Assembly: GCF_000236705.1 (NCBI RefSeq)
Contig: NC_016599.1
Location: 1,550,001-1,614,000, forward strand
Reading direction: 5' to 3'
Length of the DNA: 64,000 bases
Origin: Owenweeksia hongkongensis DSM 17368
GTDB lineage: Bacteria > Bacteroidota > Bacteroidia > Flavobacteriales > Schleiferiaceae
The translations under genes were made by a program, and so were the position numbers. Shown one piece after another: positions 15,322-38,806 of this stretch (within the stretch, counting starts at the first letter, position 1; each line of letters begins with the position of its first letter). Below the pieces are notes generated by a model. It saw nothing but the letters and a program-made list of their open reading frames with translations. It was not told where the DNA came from and searched no databases.

Positions 15322-16186
15322 GAATTGAGATTTGGAATGATTTGCAAAGTAGGGATAAGGTGAGGGATTATCCAAAAGAGTCATGGTTTATGTCCTTTTT
15401 CCCATTATGCGCCCAAGTGCTTATGCTTTCCCCCGAAAGCTTTCGGGGTCAGGTGCCCCCAAGACCCTGCTTACCGGCAGGCAGGGAACCAAAATGTCTC
15501 TTACTTTTTTCTCGAGTCAAAAAATTAAACAACCGACCCCAATAGCTATCGGGGAGCTCATGAAGTCTTATTTAAACAATAAAAGAGAGGTGAATAAAAG
15601 TTTATCTCTTACTTTTTTCTCGAGTCAAAAAAGTAAGCAAAAAGTCCCAGGCTACTCAGCTTTTCCTTGAAGCCTACATTCCCTTCCGCTAAAATTTAGA
15701 AACTCATTCCGCATACCTGCGGAACTCAAACAGCCTAAATTTTTACGCTCCACTTCATTTGGCTTCTTACGGAAAAGATGAAAGGCCTATCCATCGAAAC
15801 AAGTTTCCCCTCAAGACAATTAAAAGACGTACAGAAGCAAAGCGGTAATAAATCGGGTATAATGAAAATACATTTTCGTGATGTGACCGGCTTCATTGCA
15901 TCTCCGTAAAAAACAAAGCTGAACTTTCACAGGAGTGATCAGCGAATGAAGCGCAGCGCCATTGTCACACTGAGCGCAGTCGAAGTGGGCTCTGATCGCG
16001 AATGAAAGTGAAGACGTAGTTTTTGAGGAGAGGGAATGCAGCCTAGATTTTTGCTTCCTTTTTATCAATGAAAAAGGAAGAGCCCCGTGGCTTGAGCAAA
16101 AAGGAAAAGATAAAAACAATTCACCCTTCGATACGACCTCCCTGCGGTCAGTCACTCAGGGTGACGATCTGCAACACAGACAAACA
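15322..16186. repeat. Gene-free 865-base stretch packed with interspersed palindromic repeats
   Basis: No convincing gene is visible. The stretch contains a palindrome CCCCGAAAGCTTTCGGGG around 15433-15450, a second one around 15538-15555 (CCCCAATAGCTATCGGGG) and a 28-base direct repeat at 15497-15524 and 15605-15632. A hairpin CCGCATACCTGCGG lies near 15709. A fragment at 15964-15990 contains CTGAGCGCAGTCGAAG, and a complete 46-base REP-like unit lies at 16121-16166. Open frames crossing it consist of translated repeat and have no family resemblance. Similar units recur at 28.6, 29.9, 30.7, 32.3, 36.8 and 38.7 kb. Confidence 0.75.
16121..16166 (-). repeat. REP-like unit, TCACCCTGAGTGACTGACC family
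   Basis: Read on the minus strand it runs from TCACCCTGAGTGACTGACC to GTATCGAAGGGTGA. The outer ends TCACCCT and AGGGTGA are complementary. Copies with few changes lie at 28561-28605 and inside the mutase gene at 30694-30739. Confidence 0.75.
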
Positions 16187-27347: not shown

Positions 27348-28505
27348 ATGATACATCGCTTAATCACAGAAGAGTTTAACTATTTGCTACAGCATTTTCC
27401 GGCTGTAGGTATAGTAGGAGCACGTCAAGTAGGCAAAACTACCTTGGCCAAAAGTCACTTTGACGATAGACAAAAATTTGTATATCTCGATCTGGAAAGA
27501 AATTCGGATAGAGCCAAGCTTACAGATGCCGAACTGTTCTTACAATCCAATGAAAATAAAACGGTGATTTTAGATGAAATCCAATTTATGCCCGAGCTTT
27601 TTCCCTTGCTACGTTCGCTTATTGATGATAATCGCAGGGCTGCTCGGTTTATCATTTTAGGCTCCGCTTCACCTGCCCTGCTCAGGCAAAGTTCTGAAAG
27701 TTTAGCTGGGCGCATTGCTTACTTACTCTTGCGCCCTCTTAATTTACTGGAAGTGAAAACCACTAAAACCTGGCAAGAGACGTGGCTTTTGGGTGGGTTT
27801 CCTGAGCCTTTACTAAAATCTCAAAACCGTTTTGCCTCCACTTGGCAGCAAAATTTTATCAATAACTATATACAGCGTGATTTACCCGCTCTAGGTCTAG
27901 CCGCAAACCCAAATACAAGTTTGCGACTGCTGCAAATGCTGAGCTCTAACCAGGGTTCTACCCTAAATTTTTCCGTGCTAGCAAGATCTTTAGGAGTTAG
28001 CATGCCTTCTGTAAAAACATATTTCAGTTACTATGAAAATGCCTTCTTAGTATATAGCCTAAAGCCCTGGTCTAGCAATCTTAAAAAGCGAATTGTAAAG
28101 TCGCCTAAAGTATTTTTTACCGATACTGGAATGTTGCATCATTTGTTAGGTATAAAAAATTTTAACAGCCTGATGGGGCATCTCGCAGTAGGACATTCTT
28201 GGGAAGCTTTTGTGATAAATCAACTCATTACCGTTTTGAAACCTGATGATGAATACTACTTTTATCGTACTCAGGATGGTGCCGAAATCGATTTTTTGGT
28301 AAGGCGAAATAATAATTGGTTGCTTGCTGCCGAGATAAAACTATCCAACTCTCCCACTCTTACCAAAGGCACCCACATTGCTATGGAAGATTTAGAATTA
28401 AAGCATCTTTTTGTAATCACTCCTGAAGCTGATAATTACTACATCAAAGAGAATATTGAGGTAATTGGTTTGCTTGATATTTTGGAAAGAGTAGAGCAAT
28501 GGTAA
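27348..28505 (+). CDS. AAA ATPase with DUF4143 domain
   Basis: A 385-residue protein of the AAA_14/DUF4143 type. Walker A (GARQVGKTTL) lies at residues 24-33, Walker B (VILDEIQFM) near 73-81, sensor-like FIILGSASP near 104-112, and the DUF4143 C-terminal half contains the nuclease-like SWEAFVINQLI and GAEIDFLVRR with AAEIKLS. These genes are numerous and mobile in Bacteroidota; the function is not established, although a PD-(D/E)XK-like core has been suggested for DUF4143. I start at the ATG at 27348 rather than the TTG at 27342. An exact palindrome immediately upstream (27295-27343) may regulate it. Confidence 0.87.
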   Translation: MIHRLITEEFNYLLQHFPAVGIVGARQVGKTTLAKSHFDDRQKFVYLDLERNSDRAKLTDAELFLQSNENKTVILDEIQFMPELFPLLRSLIDDNRRAARFIILGSASPALLRQSSESLAGRIAYLLLRPLNLLEVKTTKTWQETWLLGGFPEPLLKSQNRFASTWQQNFINNYIQRDLPALGLAANPNTSLRLLQMLSSNQGSTLNFSVLARSLGVSMPSVKTYFSYYENAFLVYSLKPWSSNLKKRIVKSPKVFFTDTGMLHHLLGIKNFNSLMGHLAVGHSWEAFVINQLITVLKPDDEYYFYRTQDGAEIDFLVRRNNNWLLAAEIKLSNSPTLTKGTHIAMEDLELKHLFVITPEADNYYIKENIEVIGLLDILERVEQW

Positions 28506-28523
28506 GCCCAAGCTGGCAAAAAA

Positions 28524-28547
28524 AAAGGAGGACTCTCGTCCTCCTTT
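28524..28547. terminator. Bidirectional terminator between convergent genes
   Basis: AAAGGAGGAC (28524-28533), loop TCTC, GTCCTCCTTT (28538-28547), with an A run on the left that becomes a U tract for minus-strand transcripts. It separates the AAA ATPase gene from the mutase gene. Confidence 0.8.
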
Positions 28548-28560
28548 ATATCTCAAAAGC

Positions 28561-28605
28561 TCATCCTTCGATACAACCTCTCTTCGGTCGGTCACTCAGG
28601 ATGAC
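28561..28605 (-). repeat. REP-like unit between convergent genes
   Basis: Minus-strand reading begins TCATCCTGAGTGACCGACC and ends GTATCGAAGGATGA. It matches the unit at 16121-16166 apart from compensatory changes in the outer stem (TCATCCT/AGGATGA versus TCACCCT/AGGGTGA), which shows that pairing is conserved. Confidence 0.75.
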
Positions 28606-28614
28606 ATTCGTGTA

Positions 28615-31600
28615 TTACATATTTCTACGGTACTGCCCACCTACCTCAAACAAGGCATTGGTGATTTGGCCTAGTGAACAGAACTTCACTGCTTCCATCA
28701 GTACATCAAACATATTTTCATTATGAATAGCTGCTTCCTGAAGACGCTTTAGCCATTTACCGGTAAGGTCTTCGCCACGCTTGTGAAGGCGACCCAACAT
28801 ATCTATCTGGTATTGTTTTTCTTCTTCCGTAGCGCGGATTACTTCACCCGGACGAACCGTTGGTGAACCTTCAGAACTCAAGAAAGTATTCACACCTATA
28901 ATTGGGAATTCACCTGTGTGCTTAAGGGTTTCGTAATACAGGCTTTCTTCCTGAATCTTTCCACGCTGATACATGGTTTCCATGGCACCAAGAACGCCTC
29001 CCCTTTCGGTAATGCGGTCAAATTCTGCCAAAACAGCTTCCTCTACCAAGTCGGTCAATTCTTCAATAATGAAACTTCCCTGTGTTGGGTTTTCATTTTT
29101 GGCAAGACCTAATTCCTTATTGATAATCAGCTGAATCGCCATCGCTCTTCTCACGCTTTCCTCAGTTGGGGTGGTAATCGCCTCATCATAGGCATTGGTG
29201 TGTAGCGAGTTACAGTTATCATAAATAGCATACAAAGCTTGAAGCGTGGTACGGATATCGTTAAACTGAATTTCTTGAGCATGCAGCGAACGACCCGAAG
29301 TTTGAATGTGGTATTTCAACATCTGAGCACGAGCATTGGCACCGTACTTTTCCTTCATGGCTTTCGCCCAAATTTTACGCGCAGCACGTCCAATCACCGC
29401 GTATTCCGGGTCGATTCCATTAGAGAAGAAGAAACTCAAGTTTGGTCCAAACTCGTTGATGTCCATTCCGCGGCTCAGGTAATATTCCACGTAAGTGAAA
29501 CCATTGGCCAAAGTAAATGCCAACTGCGTAATTGGATTGGCTCCCGCTTCTGCAATGTGATATCCCGAAATAGAAACTGAGTAGAAGTTTCTAACCTTTT
29601 TGTCAATAAAGCTTTCCTGAACGTCACCCATCAGGCGAAGGGCAAATTCAGTAGAGAAAATACAGGTGTTTTGTGCCTGATCTTCTTTCAAAATATCCGC
29701 CTGAACGGTACCACGAACGGTAGCCAGCGTTTTAGCTTTTATCTCATTGTACACTTTTGCATCCAAAACCTGATCTCCGGTAATACCGAGAAGCATCAAA
29801 CCAAGGCCAGCGTTTCCAGCTGGAAGATCTCCGTTTACAGCAACTCCAGAAAGGGTTTTGGTAGTATCCTCCCCCCCGCTGCGCGTACCCCCTCCAGCGG
29901 GGGACACATCATCATCGCCATGCATGGCTTCTTCGCTGCGGGCAGCAATGGCGCCTTGGTATTGTGGCCGTTGAAGACCGTTGTCATCATAAATTTCTTT
30001 TAACTTTTTATCCACCTCAGCTTCCAGCCCGTTTTCACGGATATACTTTTCGCACTGCTGATCGATAGCGGCATTCATAAAGAAAGCCAAAAGCATAGGC
30101 GCAGGACCGTTAATCGTCATACTCACAGAAGTGGTAGGCGCACAAAGGTCAAAACCTGAATATAGTTTTTTGGCATCGTCAAGGCAGCAAATGCTCACCC
30201 CTGAGTTACCAATCTTTCCGTAAATATCTGGTCGGTGATCTGGGTCATTCCCGTAAAGGGTAACCGAGTCAAAAGCAGTACTTAAACGCGCAGCAGGCAT
30301 ATCCTGGCTCACATAGTGAAAACGTCTGTTGGTACGCTCTGGGCCACCTTCTCCGGCAAACATCCTCGTGGGATCTTCACCCGTTCTTTTGAATGGGTAG
30401 ATTCCCGCTGTGTATGGAAATTCTCCTGGTACATTTTCCTGAAGGTTCCATTGAAGTAAATCTCCCCAAGCTGTGTAGCGAGGCAATGACACTTTCGGAA
30501 CCTGAGTGTGACTCAAGGATTCCGTGTGTGTTTTTATTTCAATCTTTTTGTCCCTTACGGTAAAAGTGTACACCTCATCCTTGTACTTTTTCACCTTTTC
30601 TTCCCAATGCACCACGATGTCCCAGTTGTGCGGGTCGAGGTCTTTTTTTACTTCCTTGAATTTGGTGATAAGAGAAGAAATTATGTCTTCGTTTTCACCC
30701 TTCGATACAGAGCTTCCTGCGTCAGCCCCACTCAGGGTGACATTCCCCATTCCGTCAGGCTGAGCGGAGTCGAAGCCTTTCAACAAATCCGGGCCACCAA
30801 AAGTAAGTACCGCTTGGTACAAGCCATATAGCTTTTGTGCTACAGCAGATTGATCTTTGGCTTTCTTATCATAAGCACGGTTTCCTTCAGAAATTTCAGA
30901 GAGGTAACGTGTACGATTTGGTGGAATGATGAAAATCTTTTCACTCATCTCCTCGCCACTTTGAAAGCTGGTTTTTAATTGCTCAGCGCCTGTGCGCTCT
31001 ACAATTTTGTCCATCAATGAACGGTACAATTGGTTTGTACCCGGATCATTAAACTGGCTGGCGATACTTCCAAAAACAGGCATCGTCTCCGGGTCTTTAT
31101 CCCAAAGCTGATGATTGCGCTGGTATTGTTTTTTTACATCGCGTAAAGCGTCCAAAGCTCCACGTTTGTCAAATTTGTTAAGTGCAATAATGTCTGCAAA
31201 ATCAAGCATGTCGATTTTCTCCAACTGAGTAGCAGCACCATATTCAGGGGTCATCACATATAGTGAAACATCACTGTGTTCAATGATTTCGGTATCACTT
31301 TGACCAATACCCGAAGTTTCCAAAATGATTAAATCATAATTGGCAGCCTTCAAAATATTCACCGCTTCCTTTACGTGCTTGCTTAGCGCCAAATTACTTT
31401 GACGGGTAGCCAATGAGCGCATGTAAACACGGTCATTGCGAATGGCGTTCATGCGAATACGGTCACCCAAAAGAGCTCCACCCGTTTTACGCTTGGATGG
31501 ATCTACAGAAATAATAGCGATGGTTTTATCTTCAAAATCCATCAAAAACCTGCGAACCAACTCATCTACCAAAGAAGACTTTCCGGCACCACCGGTACCT

Positions 31601-32205
31601 GTAATACCCAAAACCGGGGTTTTTACTTCTTCCGCTTTTTTATCAATAATGTCAAGAATTTCCTTGCTCTCTTCCATGTAGTTTTCGGCAGCCGAAATAA
31701 GACGGGCAATAGCGGGCTTAAACTTTTCGTCAAGCTGATTCACCTCACCGTTTATATCATTTCCGGTAGGATAATCTGCCTGCTCCACCATATCGTTAAT
31801 CATTCCCTGAAGGCCCATTTCGCGGCCATCGTCAGGTGAATAAATACGATCAATGCCATAAGCATGAAGCTCCTCAATTTCTTCAGGAAGGATAACTCCA
31901 CCGCCACCACCAAAAATCTTGATGTGTCCGGCTCCCTTTTCCTTTAGTAAATCGCGCATGTATTTAAAATACTCAATGTGCCCACCTTGGTAAGATGTCA
32001 TGGCAATGGCCTGCGCATCTTCTTGAATAGCGGTGTTCACCACTTCCTCTACAGAACGGTCGTGACCAAGGTGAATCACCTCGCAGCCAGTAGATTGAAT
32101 GATACGTCTCATGATATTGATAGCCGCATCGTGGCCATCAAAAAGTGAGGCTGCCGTAACAATTCGAACTTTATTCTTAGGGGTATATGGAGCTGTTTGT
32201 TGCAT
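28615..32205 (-). CDS. icmF: Fused isobutyryl-/methylmalonyl-CoA mutase (IcmF type) with two in-frame repeat insertions
   Basis: A 1196-residue cobalamin enzyme that interconverts branched and straight acyl-CoA thioesters. Domains in order: an N-terminal B12-binding domain ([15 protein letters not shown], then VIHLGHDRS); a MeaI-type G-protein chaperone with P-loop GTGGAGKSS around residue 205 and [12 protein letters not shown]; and, from about residue 570, the mutase barrel ([32 protein letters not shown] lies in the G domain). The start is ATG 32205 ([19 protein letters not shown]) rather than an upstream TTG. Two stretches do not belong to the family: residues 477-504 are encoded by REP-like sequence and 767-780 by a second repeat type, both open in this frame. 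They account for part of the extra length relative to family members of about 1100 residues. The gene is therefore intact but enlarged. Confidence 0.93.
29866..29907 (-). repeat. GC-rich palindromic repeat translated in frame inside icmF
   Basis: The minus strand reads GTGTCCCCCGCTGGAGGGGG and continues to a CGCAGCGGGG stem end; it encodes [14 protein letters not shown] (residues 767-780). The intergenic copy at 32298-32380 shares CTCCCGCCAGCGGGAGACA against CCCCCTCCAGCGGGGGACA here. GC-rich compared with the surrounding gene. Confidence 0.7.
30694..30777 (-). repeat. Compound REP-like element translated in frame inside icmF
   Basis: The minus strand encodes residues 477-504 (GFDSAQPDG..., ending SSVSKGE). 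Its first part contains CTTCGACTCCGCTCAGCCTG, a unit also seen at 36.8 and 38.7 kb. The second part runs from GTCACCCTGAGTGGGGCTGA to GTATCGAAGGGTGA, matching the intergenic units at 16121-16166 and 28561-28605. Confidence 0.8.
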
Positions 32206-32297
32206 ATCGTGATTTTTAAAGGATGGCAAAGGTAAGCAATGGTGTGGCTAGCCGCCAAACGTGGAATTGGTTGATTGGGGAATTAGTTGAAATGTCC

Positions 32298-32380
32298 ACC
32301 CTCGCCCTTCGGGCACTCCCGCCAGCGGGAGACAAAACCCTATCCCCCTCTGGAGGGGGTGGCTGAAAGCTGGGGGAGGA
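32298..32380. repeat. GC-rich palindromic repeats upstream of icmF
   Basis: A cluster of short perfect palindromes, CGCCCTTCGGGC, CTCCCGCCAGCGGGAG and CCCCCTCTGGAGGGGG, in the 219-base gap between icmF and the SpoIID gene. The second is the same family as the insertion at 29866-29907 inside the neighbouring gene. Two flanking stretches, rich in TTGA/AATTA words, also repeat imperfectly (32260-32290 and 32385-32425). No gene is seen here. Confidence 0.65.
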
Positions 32381-32424
32381 CCAGTTAACTTTTTAACCAA
32401 TTGACCAGTCAACTAATTAACTTA

Positions 32425-33597
32425 TCAACTATCCCCCAGATGCTCAATACACTCCAGCTCCACGTCAGAAAAGTAGAACTTTAAAATTTCGCGGTAGTTG
32501 TAGCCTCGCTTGTCCATTTCCATGGCGCCATCTTGTGAAAGGCCCACTCCATGGCCGTAGCCATTACCTTTTAAGATTAGGTTACTACCCGATTCCTGAA
32601 CAGTAAAATAGGTGGAGCGTAAGCGAAACTTTGTCCGGAGACTGGTCAGTTTAAGACGTTTTCCTTTGTATTCAAAGTAGGCAACTCTTCCATTTCTTTG
32701 GTCAAAGTTGAGCCAGGCTTTGTGTAAATGAACATCATTAGAAACGCCCATTTTGCTTGCCACATATCCGTAAAATTCTGATTTGGAAACTGTTTTTTCC
32801 CAATTGTAACTTCCTACATTCAGACTAAAAGTATCACGTTGTGGCTTTAAATATTCAATAGCTTTTGACCAAGCATGATCTGACCCCACAGTGTATCCAC
32901 CACTATTGGCATGAAAAACACCAAGTATAGGCTCGCAATCATAGGTTACAATTACGGTGTCTTTAGTGCAATCCACCGCGTCTTGAATTGCTGCAGAATA
33001 ACGATAATGCGCTTTGGAAAAATACACCTGAGATGTAACATCATCTTTCAGGTTGTAACCATCGCGTATGTGTTTGTTCCAATTTCGTAAAACAAAAGTG
33101 CGCGCCAAAACCGCTTGAGCCTTAAAGTATTCCGGGTTCAACTCATGCCCACCTTCACTTTCTACTACGCCCCCCACATAATCTTCTATATCTACAATAT
33201 TTACCACCTGCACATAGCCATCATAAATTCTTAGCTGCAAATCGCCATGATAAACGCGCCATTTGCCGGCTGCATAAATTCTAAACTCCTTTTTGGGATC
33301 CTTGCTACGAATGAGCACTGCATCATAAATTCCAAGATTGTTATCACCCTTTTTGGCTTGCACATCTTTACCATATCTGATGATGGAAAGTTTACGGTTT
33401 TCCTCTTCCTCAAATACATCAAGCACCGTATCAATCGGTCGAAGCTTATCATCCAAAGCAATAAGATAATACGCTCCCGTATCAGGAATGATGGTAGCCG
33501 AAGTCAGATTATCTGTAGAGAACAAACGAATCTTCACATCCAAAGCCCAAAGCGATGGGCTGAGGAAAAGGGTTAATATGAGTAGCTTGAGTTTCAT
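32425..33597 (-). CDS. SpoIID/LytB-domain protein
   Basis: A 390-residue exported protein with a short signal peptide (MKLKLLILTLFLSPSLWA). The SpoIID/LytB core includes VDIEDYVGGVVESEGGHE with the probable catalytic Glu, EYFKAQAVLARTFVLRN, HANSGGYT and the C-terminal GNGYGHGVGLSQDGAMEM. SpoIID is a lytic transglycosylase acting on peptidoglycan strands lacking stem peptides in sporulating bacteria; this organism is not expected to sporulate, so here it is probably a general cell-wall enzyme. I use ATG 33597 because the upstream 21 residues overlap the end of lpxB and lack family resemblance. It starts four bases after lpxB ends. Confidence 0.88.
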   Translation of the reverse strand: MKLKLLILTLFLSPSLWALDVKIRLFSTDNLTSATIIPDTGAYYLIALDDKLRPIDTVLDVFEEEENRKLSIIRYGKDVQAKKGDNNLGIYDAVLIRSKDPKKEFRIYAAGKWRVYHGDLQLRIYDGYVQVVNIVDIEDYVGGVVESEGGHELNPEYFKAQAVLARTFVLRNWNKHIRDGYNLKDDVTSQVYFSKAHYRYSAAIQDAVDCTKDTVIVTYDCEPILGVFHANSGGYTVGSDHAWSKAIEYLKPQRDTFSLNVGSYNWEKTVSKSEFYGYVASKMGVSNDVHLHKAWLNFDQRNGRVAYFEYKGKRLKLTSLRTKFRLRSTYFTVQESGSNLILKGNGYGHGVGLSQDGAMEMDKRGYNYREILKFYFSDVELECIEHLGDS

Positions 33598-36743: not shown

Positions 36744-36901
36744 TATCCACCTCCGCCCTACGGGGACCTCTACTTCCCCGAAAGCTTTCGGGGTCAGCAC
36801 AGGCTCTCTGCGGAGGACAAGCAACACCCAGTCAGTCCGAGCGGAGTCGAGGCCCCATCTTGACACTTTCTTTTATCCCCTCTCGACTCCGCTCGGGGAA
36901 A
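36744..36901. repeat. Interspersed repeat cluster with CCGAGCGGAGTCGAGG inverted pair
   Basis: Contains the palindrome CCCCGAAAGCTTTCGGGG around 36777-36794 (also at 15.43 kb), then CCGAGCGGAGTCGAGG at 36837-36852 and its near-perfect inverse at 36882-36897. Together with the terminator and the BlaI operators it fills the 316-base gap between the peptidase and blaI-like genes. Confidence 0.7.
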
Positions 36902-38743: not shown

Positions 38744-38806
38744 GTCAGTCCGAGCAAAGTCGAGGACCCTCACAGATACTGCCCCTCGACTCCGCTCGGG
38801 GAGACT
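38744..38806. repeat. Interspersed inverted-pair repeat
   Basis: GTCAGTCCGAGCAAAGTCGA (38745-38764) with the inverse unit CCTCGACTCCGCTCGG at 38784-38799. The same pair occurs at 36831-36897, and the unit CTTCGACTCCGCTCAG is part of the element inside icmF. No gene is present in the 38654-38878 gap. Confidence 0.7.

Follow-up and report, generated by a model that had tools for sequence, protein, structure and literature searches.

GTAG- and CGTC-tagged REPs are short dispersed palindromes which lie mostly outside of genes, but some are found in frame inside open reading frames (PMC3733652). In the parts of that study that treat them, intragenic REPs are often dimers or groups that add 20-30 residues to the protein, double insertions in one gene occur, flexible linkers or loops are proposed as tolerant sites, and different REPs are recorded at about the same recB site in two Xanthomonas species (PMC3733652). 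Rickettsia palindromic elements (RPE) are described in PMC10969869 as in-frame, translated insertions in metabolic genes. A search of the open-access literature on intragenic REPs in Flavobacterium, flavobacteria and Owenweeksia yielded no recognised paper on such insertions, and the passages of PMC3751351 that mention Owenweeksia hongkongensis name it only for a k-mer genome-size estimate. The gene icmF of this flavobacterium carries two palindromic elements of different families, A and C. We regard it as likely that dispersed REP-like palindromes landed in frame in two linkers of icmF and that the first linker is a permissive site reached repeatedly in the Flavobacteriales.

Two palindromic elements in icmF of O. 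hongkongensis

The window, the whole stretch of 64,000 nucleotides analysed from the 4,000,057-bp genome, contains icmF on the minus strand at 28615-32229. The predicted protein has 1204 amino acids from a TTG start or 1196 from an ATG at 32205, and unites a B12-binding domain, a MeaB-like G domain (residues 175-405) and the mutase in a single chain, the domain set of a fused isobutyryl-CoA mutase (IcmF). The solved IcmF 4xc6 aligned to query residues 16-469, 538-744 and 829-1204. Both inserts mapped to the gaps of this alignment, insert 1 to 469-538 and insert 2 to 744-829. The first gap lies between the G domain and the mutase part, a linker of IcmF that is named in the relevant part of PMC10481361 (linker 1 in the following). 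The preliminary description had given residues 477-504 for insert 1 and had placed them in this interdomain linker; both statements hold, the numbering being that from the ATG. It had also taken residues 767-780, which contain insert 2, for a probable surface loop of the mutase. These residues are indeed in a gap of 4xc6, but residues ~750-800 form a variable segment between the motifs YQG and GLGLMLLG which exceeds 20 residues in three of the 80 named homologues, the close relatives L062-L064, and is short in the other 77. Since this segment is absent from 4xc6 and from these 77 proteins, insert 2 sits in a lineage-specific extra segment (linker 2) outside the conserved mutase core and not in a loop of that core. 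A structural argument from an AlphaFold model was dropped: scores were below 50 at 477-503 and 748-798, but the model was poor (mean pLDDT 57.5) and many conserved places scored as low, so that the values at the inserts carry little weight.

Insert 1 covers 30777-30695 on the minus strand and begins with a short A-type palindrome, GGCTTCGACTCCGCTCAGCC (30758-30777), which includes an exact CTTCGACTCCGCTCAG at 30760-30775. It is followed by a complete 47-nt A element (30695-30741, minus strand), the predicted source of a 15-residue peptide. Insert 2 is a complete 40-nt C element (29866-29905, minus strand) within a predicted peptide of 14 residues. Both inserts are open in the icmF reading frame, as had been claimed, and with conserved protein on both sides they are probably translated. 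Further copies flank the gene at the places indicated in the preliminary description: a C copy just upstream (32294-32333, minus strand; a match to the C pattern) and an intergenic A copy just downstream (28561-28605, minus strand), whose core, 28562-28600, is identical at the same place in the sister species G026. The gene is thereby bracketed by repeats of both families. The A copy reported at 16.1 kb was located at 16121-16165 (minus strand), where a 381-nt stop-to-stop frame spans the copy and no convincing gene is apparent. The short A-type units reported at 36.8 and 38.7 kb are present (36837-36852, minus strand; 38784-38799, plus strand), but each differs from the icmF unit by two mismatches, and a nearer copy with one mismatch, unlisted before, lies at 15970-15985 (minus strand). 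A search of positions 28400-32500 against Rfam gave two matches, both below the gathering score. The inserts are free of them, and one of the two overlaps the C copy upstream of icmF.

Both families are dispersed in the genome. Including the icmF copies, 14 matches were counted for A (1 and 0 in reversed-pattern controls) and 14 for C (control 0), and the short A-type unit occurs at 10 places within two mismatches (control 2). Three of the 14 A copies and two of the 14 C copies fall into the window. Within the window, the A arm was found three times against 0.24 expected and the short unit four times against 0.01 expected, numbers reached in none of 100 shuffles. The C probe CCCGCTGGAGGGGG, with three mismatches allowed, gave five window matches against 1.57 expected, a weak excess that was reached in 2 of 100 shuffles and in which two matches represent one palindrome on both strands; the case for C therefore rests on the longer genome-wide C pattern. 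In a list read by eye, the A copies have the outer arms in common and differ in the inner hairpins, and the icmF copy resembles a subtype with intergenic members.

The window contains further repeats. The palindrome CCCCGAAAGCTTTCGGGGTCAG occurs exactly twice (36776-36797 and 15431-15452), and similar stems are present inside some A elements, e.g., in L191. Between 39944 and 44054, three 39-nt hairpins of the type ACAAAAAAACCCCGACCTCTTTCGAGATCGGGGTTTGTA are spaced by ~2.03 kb, two nearly identical and one at 77%; the long direct repeats between them represent a duplicated segment with terminator-like ends.

Distribution of the elements among relatives and genes

A family-wide search found IcmF matches in 87 of 88 genomes, and 30 loci were aligned. 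Nine related icmF genes (L033, L036, L039-L045) lack both the A and the C elements. In L033 and L039, linker 2 is occupied by native sequence of about the same length as the insert-bearing segment, thus the absence of C is one of sequence and not of length. On the basis of these outgroup alignments, an ancestral protein sequence was rejected for both inserts. The preliminary description had expected insert-free relatives with exact junctions. The former were obtained; neither an exact empty site nor a target duplication was recovered among the icmF relatives compared, and exact junctions are not demonstrable because a near-identical empty allele was not found. Among the homologues compared, none from a genome free of the repeats shares the O. 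hongkongensis residues; the genome G023 retains an A element in icmF and has almost none elsewhere.

The genomes G002, G022, G023, G000, G026, G027 and G028 form one clade (local support 96), and all seven carry extra linker sequence (for G026, linker 2 only), though not the same one. In L035 and L037, linker 1 contains an A element behind an inverted A-type unit; in L034, it contains a C element along with further sequence that resembles palindromes. The linker insert of L038 and L046 fits no proven family, with a longest perfect inverted repeat of 6 and 5 nt, respectively. The nearest named relative, an uncultured Owenweeksia (L063), has the same linker as the same-genus G028. In the sister species G026 (L053), whose protein is 97% identical over residues 723-1204, linker 2 contains an A-type element where O. 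hongkongensis has C. This element is the best DNA match to linker 1 of O. hongkongensis (86% over 58 bases). That the A element moved within icmF, out of linker 1 and into linker 2, is no more than suggested by this match, as linker 1 of G026 was not found in its assembly.

Linker 1 of relatives also holds other palindromes. Among the 80 named loci, the unit R1 (ATTCTGAAACAAGTTCAGAATGAC or ATCCTGAATCAAGTTCAGGATGAC) is present in linker 1 of L072 and L100, and R2/R3 units of the type GTCATTC..GGAATCT in linker 1 of L071, L080, L088 and L131; folding of the linker DNA covered at least 45 listed entries. All eight in-gene matches fall within linker 1, at ORF residues 483-500. The single gene with two repeats that had been called remarkable was confirmed, but this judgement understated the case, considering the other families in the same linker of relatives. 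For most of these linker-1 palindromes, not for all, repeat copies exist elsewhere in the respective genomes. R1 gave 10 to 35 matches in each of six genomes, 135 in total (control 0). R2/R3 gave 49 matches in six of seven genomes (control 0), a search that left the eighth locus, L090, aside and was without a match in G089, the genome of L094. Beyond icmF, the genomes of L072, L100, L071, L080, L088 and L131 hold 9, 9, 4, 1, 13 and 21 further matches (controls 0), the sole one in the L080 genome being of different length. The exact R1 unit of icmF recurs three times elsewhere in the L072 genome and once in the L100 genome.

A strict match to one of four palindrome patterns was found in 6 of 80 icmF genes and in 0 of 634 neighbouring ORFs of the same loci (Fisher p 1.7e-6); the test is circular in part, as icmF inserts had served to define R1-R3. 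Linker length is 41-51 residues in the six cases with a strict R1-R3 match, and its median is 43 in the remaining 74. Replacement or old insertion thus fits as well as plain addition, and the R1-R3 cases show repeat sequence in the linker without a clear net gain in length. On a tree built without the linkers, the linker-1 labels require at least 11 changes, a count that includes weak labels: L094 (no other genomic R2/R3), L080 (a single further copy, whose length differs), L113 and L074 (units diverged and decayed, respectively), L139 (a weaker label, from the icmF linker sequence only) and the L038/L046 insert of no proven family. The tree left out L062, L063, L064 and L127, which come from the same genomes as L033, L038, L039 and L049, and the entries L047, L048, L050 and L054; the count of changes also left out L053.

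Most copies lie outside of genes. In O. hongkongensis, 1 of 14 A and 3 of 14 C copies were judged to be within real genes: one A and one C in icmF, one C in a serA-like and one C in an hsdM-like gene, whereas other spanning frames of at least 300 nt were by our judgement spurious or upstream of the true start. The C element of the serA-like, phosphoglycerate-dehydrogenase-like gene is in frame between query residues 258 and 287, a stretch missing in the solved relative 1wwk. The C copy of the hsdM-like gene, as read in the own genome, is also in frame. Counts of A and C, which were defined from this genome, carry less bias than the test with R1-R3. All 47 A matches of ten relatives were inspected, not counting the altered A element in linker 2 of G026 icmF that the strict pattern missed: two are in icmF (G022 and G023, which may stem from one event), one is in a DNA-methylase ORF, one is antisense in an ORF without Pfam match, one is at the very edge of an antisense ORF, and the remainder are in no ORF of at least 600 nt within the stretches examined. 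Among eight relatives, C was absent from five; G026 had eight matches, G027 one and G002 one, the last in linker 1 of icmF.

Of the 135 R1 copies, 61 were examined. Besides icmF, their open-frame hosts are genes for a DegT-type aminotransferase, an RmlD-type protein, a 3-hydroxyacyl-CoA dehydrogenase, an MnmE-type GTPase and leucyl-tRNA synthetase; a copy in L292 near an ORF start is doubtful as an in-gene case. The C copy of G027 lies in another DegT-type gene. Among 44 of the 49 R2/R3 copies, four were in icmF and one was in a gene of the phosphoglucomutase family. Some of the stretches examined around repeat copies stop at contig ends. As observations apart, two Mesonia genomes (L212, L280) have an R1 element in common, near residue 294 of the 3-hydroxyacyl-CoA dehydrogenase, and the leucyl-tRNA synthetase gene of G096 (L283:1-2742) has, in addition to the R1 palindrome, a DUF559 match at residues 132-235, a second apparent insertion.

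Change of the elements after insertion

The A insert in linker 1 is common to two genera (L035 and L037), which permits a comparison of its DNA and its peptide. The inner stem of seven pairs differs in three pairs, and all three differences are compensated (chance about 4e-4), while the peptide encoded there is unlike. Over the whole icmF gene, only 41% of the four-fold degenerate sites and 50% of the third positions are identical. Within the insert, the arms together with the spacer agree in 21 of 23 third positions (p 3e-5 against 50%); for the whole aligned insert the agreement is lower, 30 of 40, with 3 of 7 in the inner part. The left units differ as well: the inverted repeat is imperfect in L035, and in its place L037 shows a perfect one of 20 nt, the outcome to be expected had one arm served as template for the other.

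These data could speak for a selected hairpin, kept in the icmF mRNA or DNA for a role in place such as pausing between domains, mRNA stability or a binding site, with the linker as its functional seat. That the stem changed at three pairs on both sides and at none on one side only, while its peptide diverged, would be in line with such a role, as would the conserved arms in a genome almost devoid of donor copies and the four icmF A units, which are all 47 nt long, fold similarly and are read in one frame. The common frame is expected anyway by our own reading, since stop codons interrupt the remaining frames of an element so oriented. The linker lacks an insert in many relatives, and the inserts of L038 and L046 contain only the very short inverted repeats mentioned above. 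Strand switching corrects quasi-palindromes and thereby produces paired changes in the absence of selection. Taken together, we consider a selected function of the hairpins unlikely; their upkeep may be due to strand switching rather than to selection. Conversion from genomic donors is unsupported as a general cause of this upkeep, because A-type sequence in G023 is nearly confined to icmF, with two matches, one of them icmF itself, against four in the control.

Differences between O. hongkongensis and its sister species G026 are not limited to icmF. In the serA-like genes of this pair (L183:686-1675 and L023:687-1667), a 40-nt C element occupies nearly the same position but points the opposite way. 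In the inverted orientation, 33 of 40 positions match, and the alignment score is 26 compared to 2.5 in the same orientation and to at most 16 in 2000 shuffles. As the flanks differ by several bases between the two species, an inversion in place and a second insertion nearby are indistinguishable.

The observations suggest the following course. Elements of the REP-like families A and C would enter genes now and then and persist only where frame and structure permit, in icmF in two flexible linkers, where they would be translated as spacer peptide. The linker between G domain and mutase would be a permissive site, reached repeatedly by unrelated palindrome families in the Flavobacteriales. Once inserted, an element may go on evolving as a DNA hairpin by pairwise stem change, swap or flip, with hardly any constraint on the peptide; the linkers are presumably flexible and the inserts nearly neutral for the enzyme. 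A farther-reaching version, which we hold only tentatively and rather doubt, regards the interdomain linkers of IcmF as a long-lived exchange site, in which unrelated selfish palindromes enter, replace each other, flip and are re-perfected in place. If true, a part of a conserved enzyme would evolve by hairpin-driven DNA change independent of the peptide, and the linker sequence would be renewed repeatedly from genomic repeats.

Mobilisation, choice of the site and relation to known systems

The genome encodes three Y1 transposases. The preliminary description had proposed a look-up of RAYT genes: two of the three pass the NCBIfam RAYT cut-off of 80 bits (L002, 87.6 bits; L003, 104.4 bits), but within 1.5 kb on each side of these two transposase matches there was no convincing A or C copy. 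The third, L001, is of the IS200 type and has one imperfect A-arm match within 1.5 kb. No transposase gene lies beside a convincing copy. RAYT-driven movement is plausible, and Y1/RAYT transposases may have acted on single-stranded hairpins. The two proposals made earlier, loops that tolerate insertions and repeats mobilised in this lineage, both fit the dispersal, the insert-free relatives and the RAYT genes. Of the 14 A copies, none has GTAG at an end and one has CGTC, within 8 nt of its core; the C copies were read by eye. By their end tetranucleotides, A and C stand outside the GTAG and CGTC super-families of REPs.

The mobilising enzyme might also prefer the linker as a target, by sequence- or structure-specific insertion, so that the linker would be more than a site of survivors. 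It would agree with this that two genes of the sister species differ in the element, or in its orientation, at nearly the same place, and that three A and two C copies, of 14 each, lie in the window. By eye, however, no shared target motif was seen; the families found in the linker do not have the same ends, unrelated genes hold further insertions, and the serA flanks of the sister species differ by several bases. A preferred target is therefore quite unlikely. Least probable by far, and refuted for both window inserts, with the weakest cases L094 and L080 excepted, are ancestral or ordinary IcmF linkers that resemble repeats by chance: IcmF linkers do vary in length and composition, and R1-R3 matches do not go with greater length, but complete 47-nt and 40-nt elements match dispersed families (controls 1 and 0), nine related icmF genes are without them, and the exact R1 unit recurs in two genomes.

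The permissive linker, our preferred reading, presents a natural experiment with replicates: in several lineages, the same linker of one conserved enzyme contains different mobile palindromes. The origin of new protein linker sequence and the upkeep of intragenic REP-like hairpins by mutation or by selection become testable. Caution is indicated for repeat-derived peptides in proteins of Bacteroidota, which can be of genomic origin and not ancestral protein.

In comparison to known systems, the icmF elements have the features of intragenic repeats: dispersed copies outside the gene, and in-frame inserts that are absent from homologues. Paired dispersed palindromes in a genome with two proteins above the RAYT cut-off recall the REPINs with RAYT of PMC3116915 and PMC8049555; unlike in those systems, as far as the two accounts present them, no RAYT gene adjoins a convincing A or C copy, and mobilisation is here presumed. 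With the RPE as outlined in PMC10969869, they have in common the in-frame palindrome in a metabolic gene, translation being predicted in our case. RPE, by the same outline, are ~150 bp long with a conserved peptide, whereas the elements here have 40 and 47 nt, occur in an unrelated lineage and encode no conserved peptide, the inner peptide being diverged between L035 and L037. The intragenic GTAG/CGTC REPs are closest, since A and C are likewise dispersed, mostly extragenic and in frame in linkers (PMC3733652). Differences to the REPs in that part of the literature are the absent GTAG tag, with CGTC near a single A copy, the reuse of one icmF linker by several families across an order, and the possible inversion and the paired stem change inside coding sequence. 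The insertions in icmF are thus of an already known kind, in-frame REPs as characterised in the portions of PMC3733652 and PMC10969869 cited above, at an unusually clear recurrent site.
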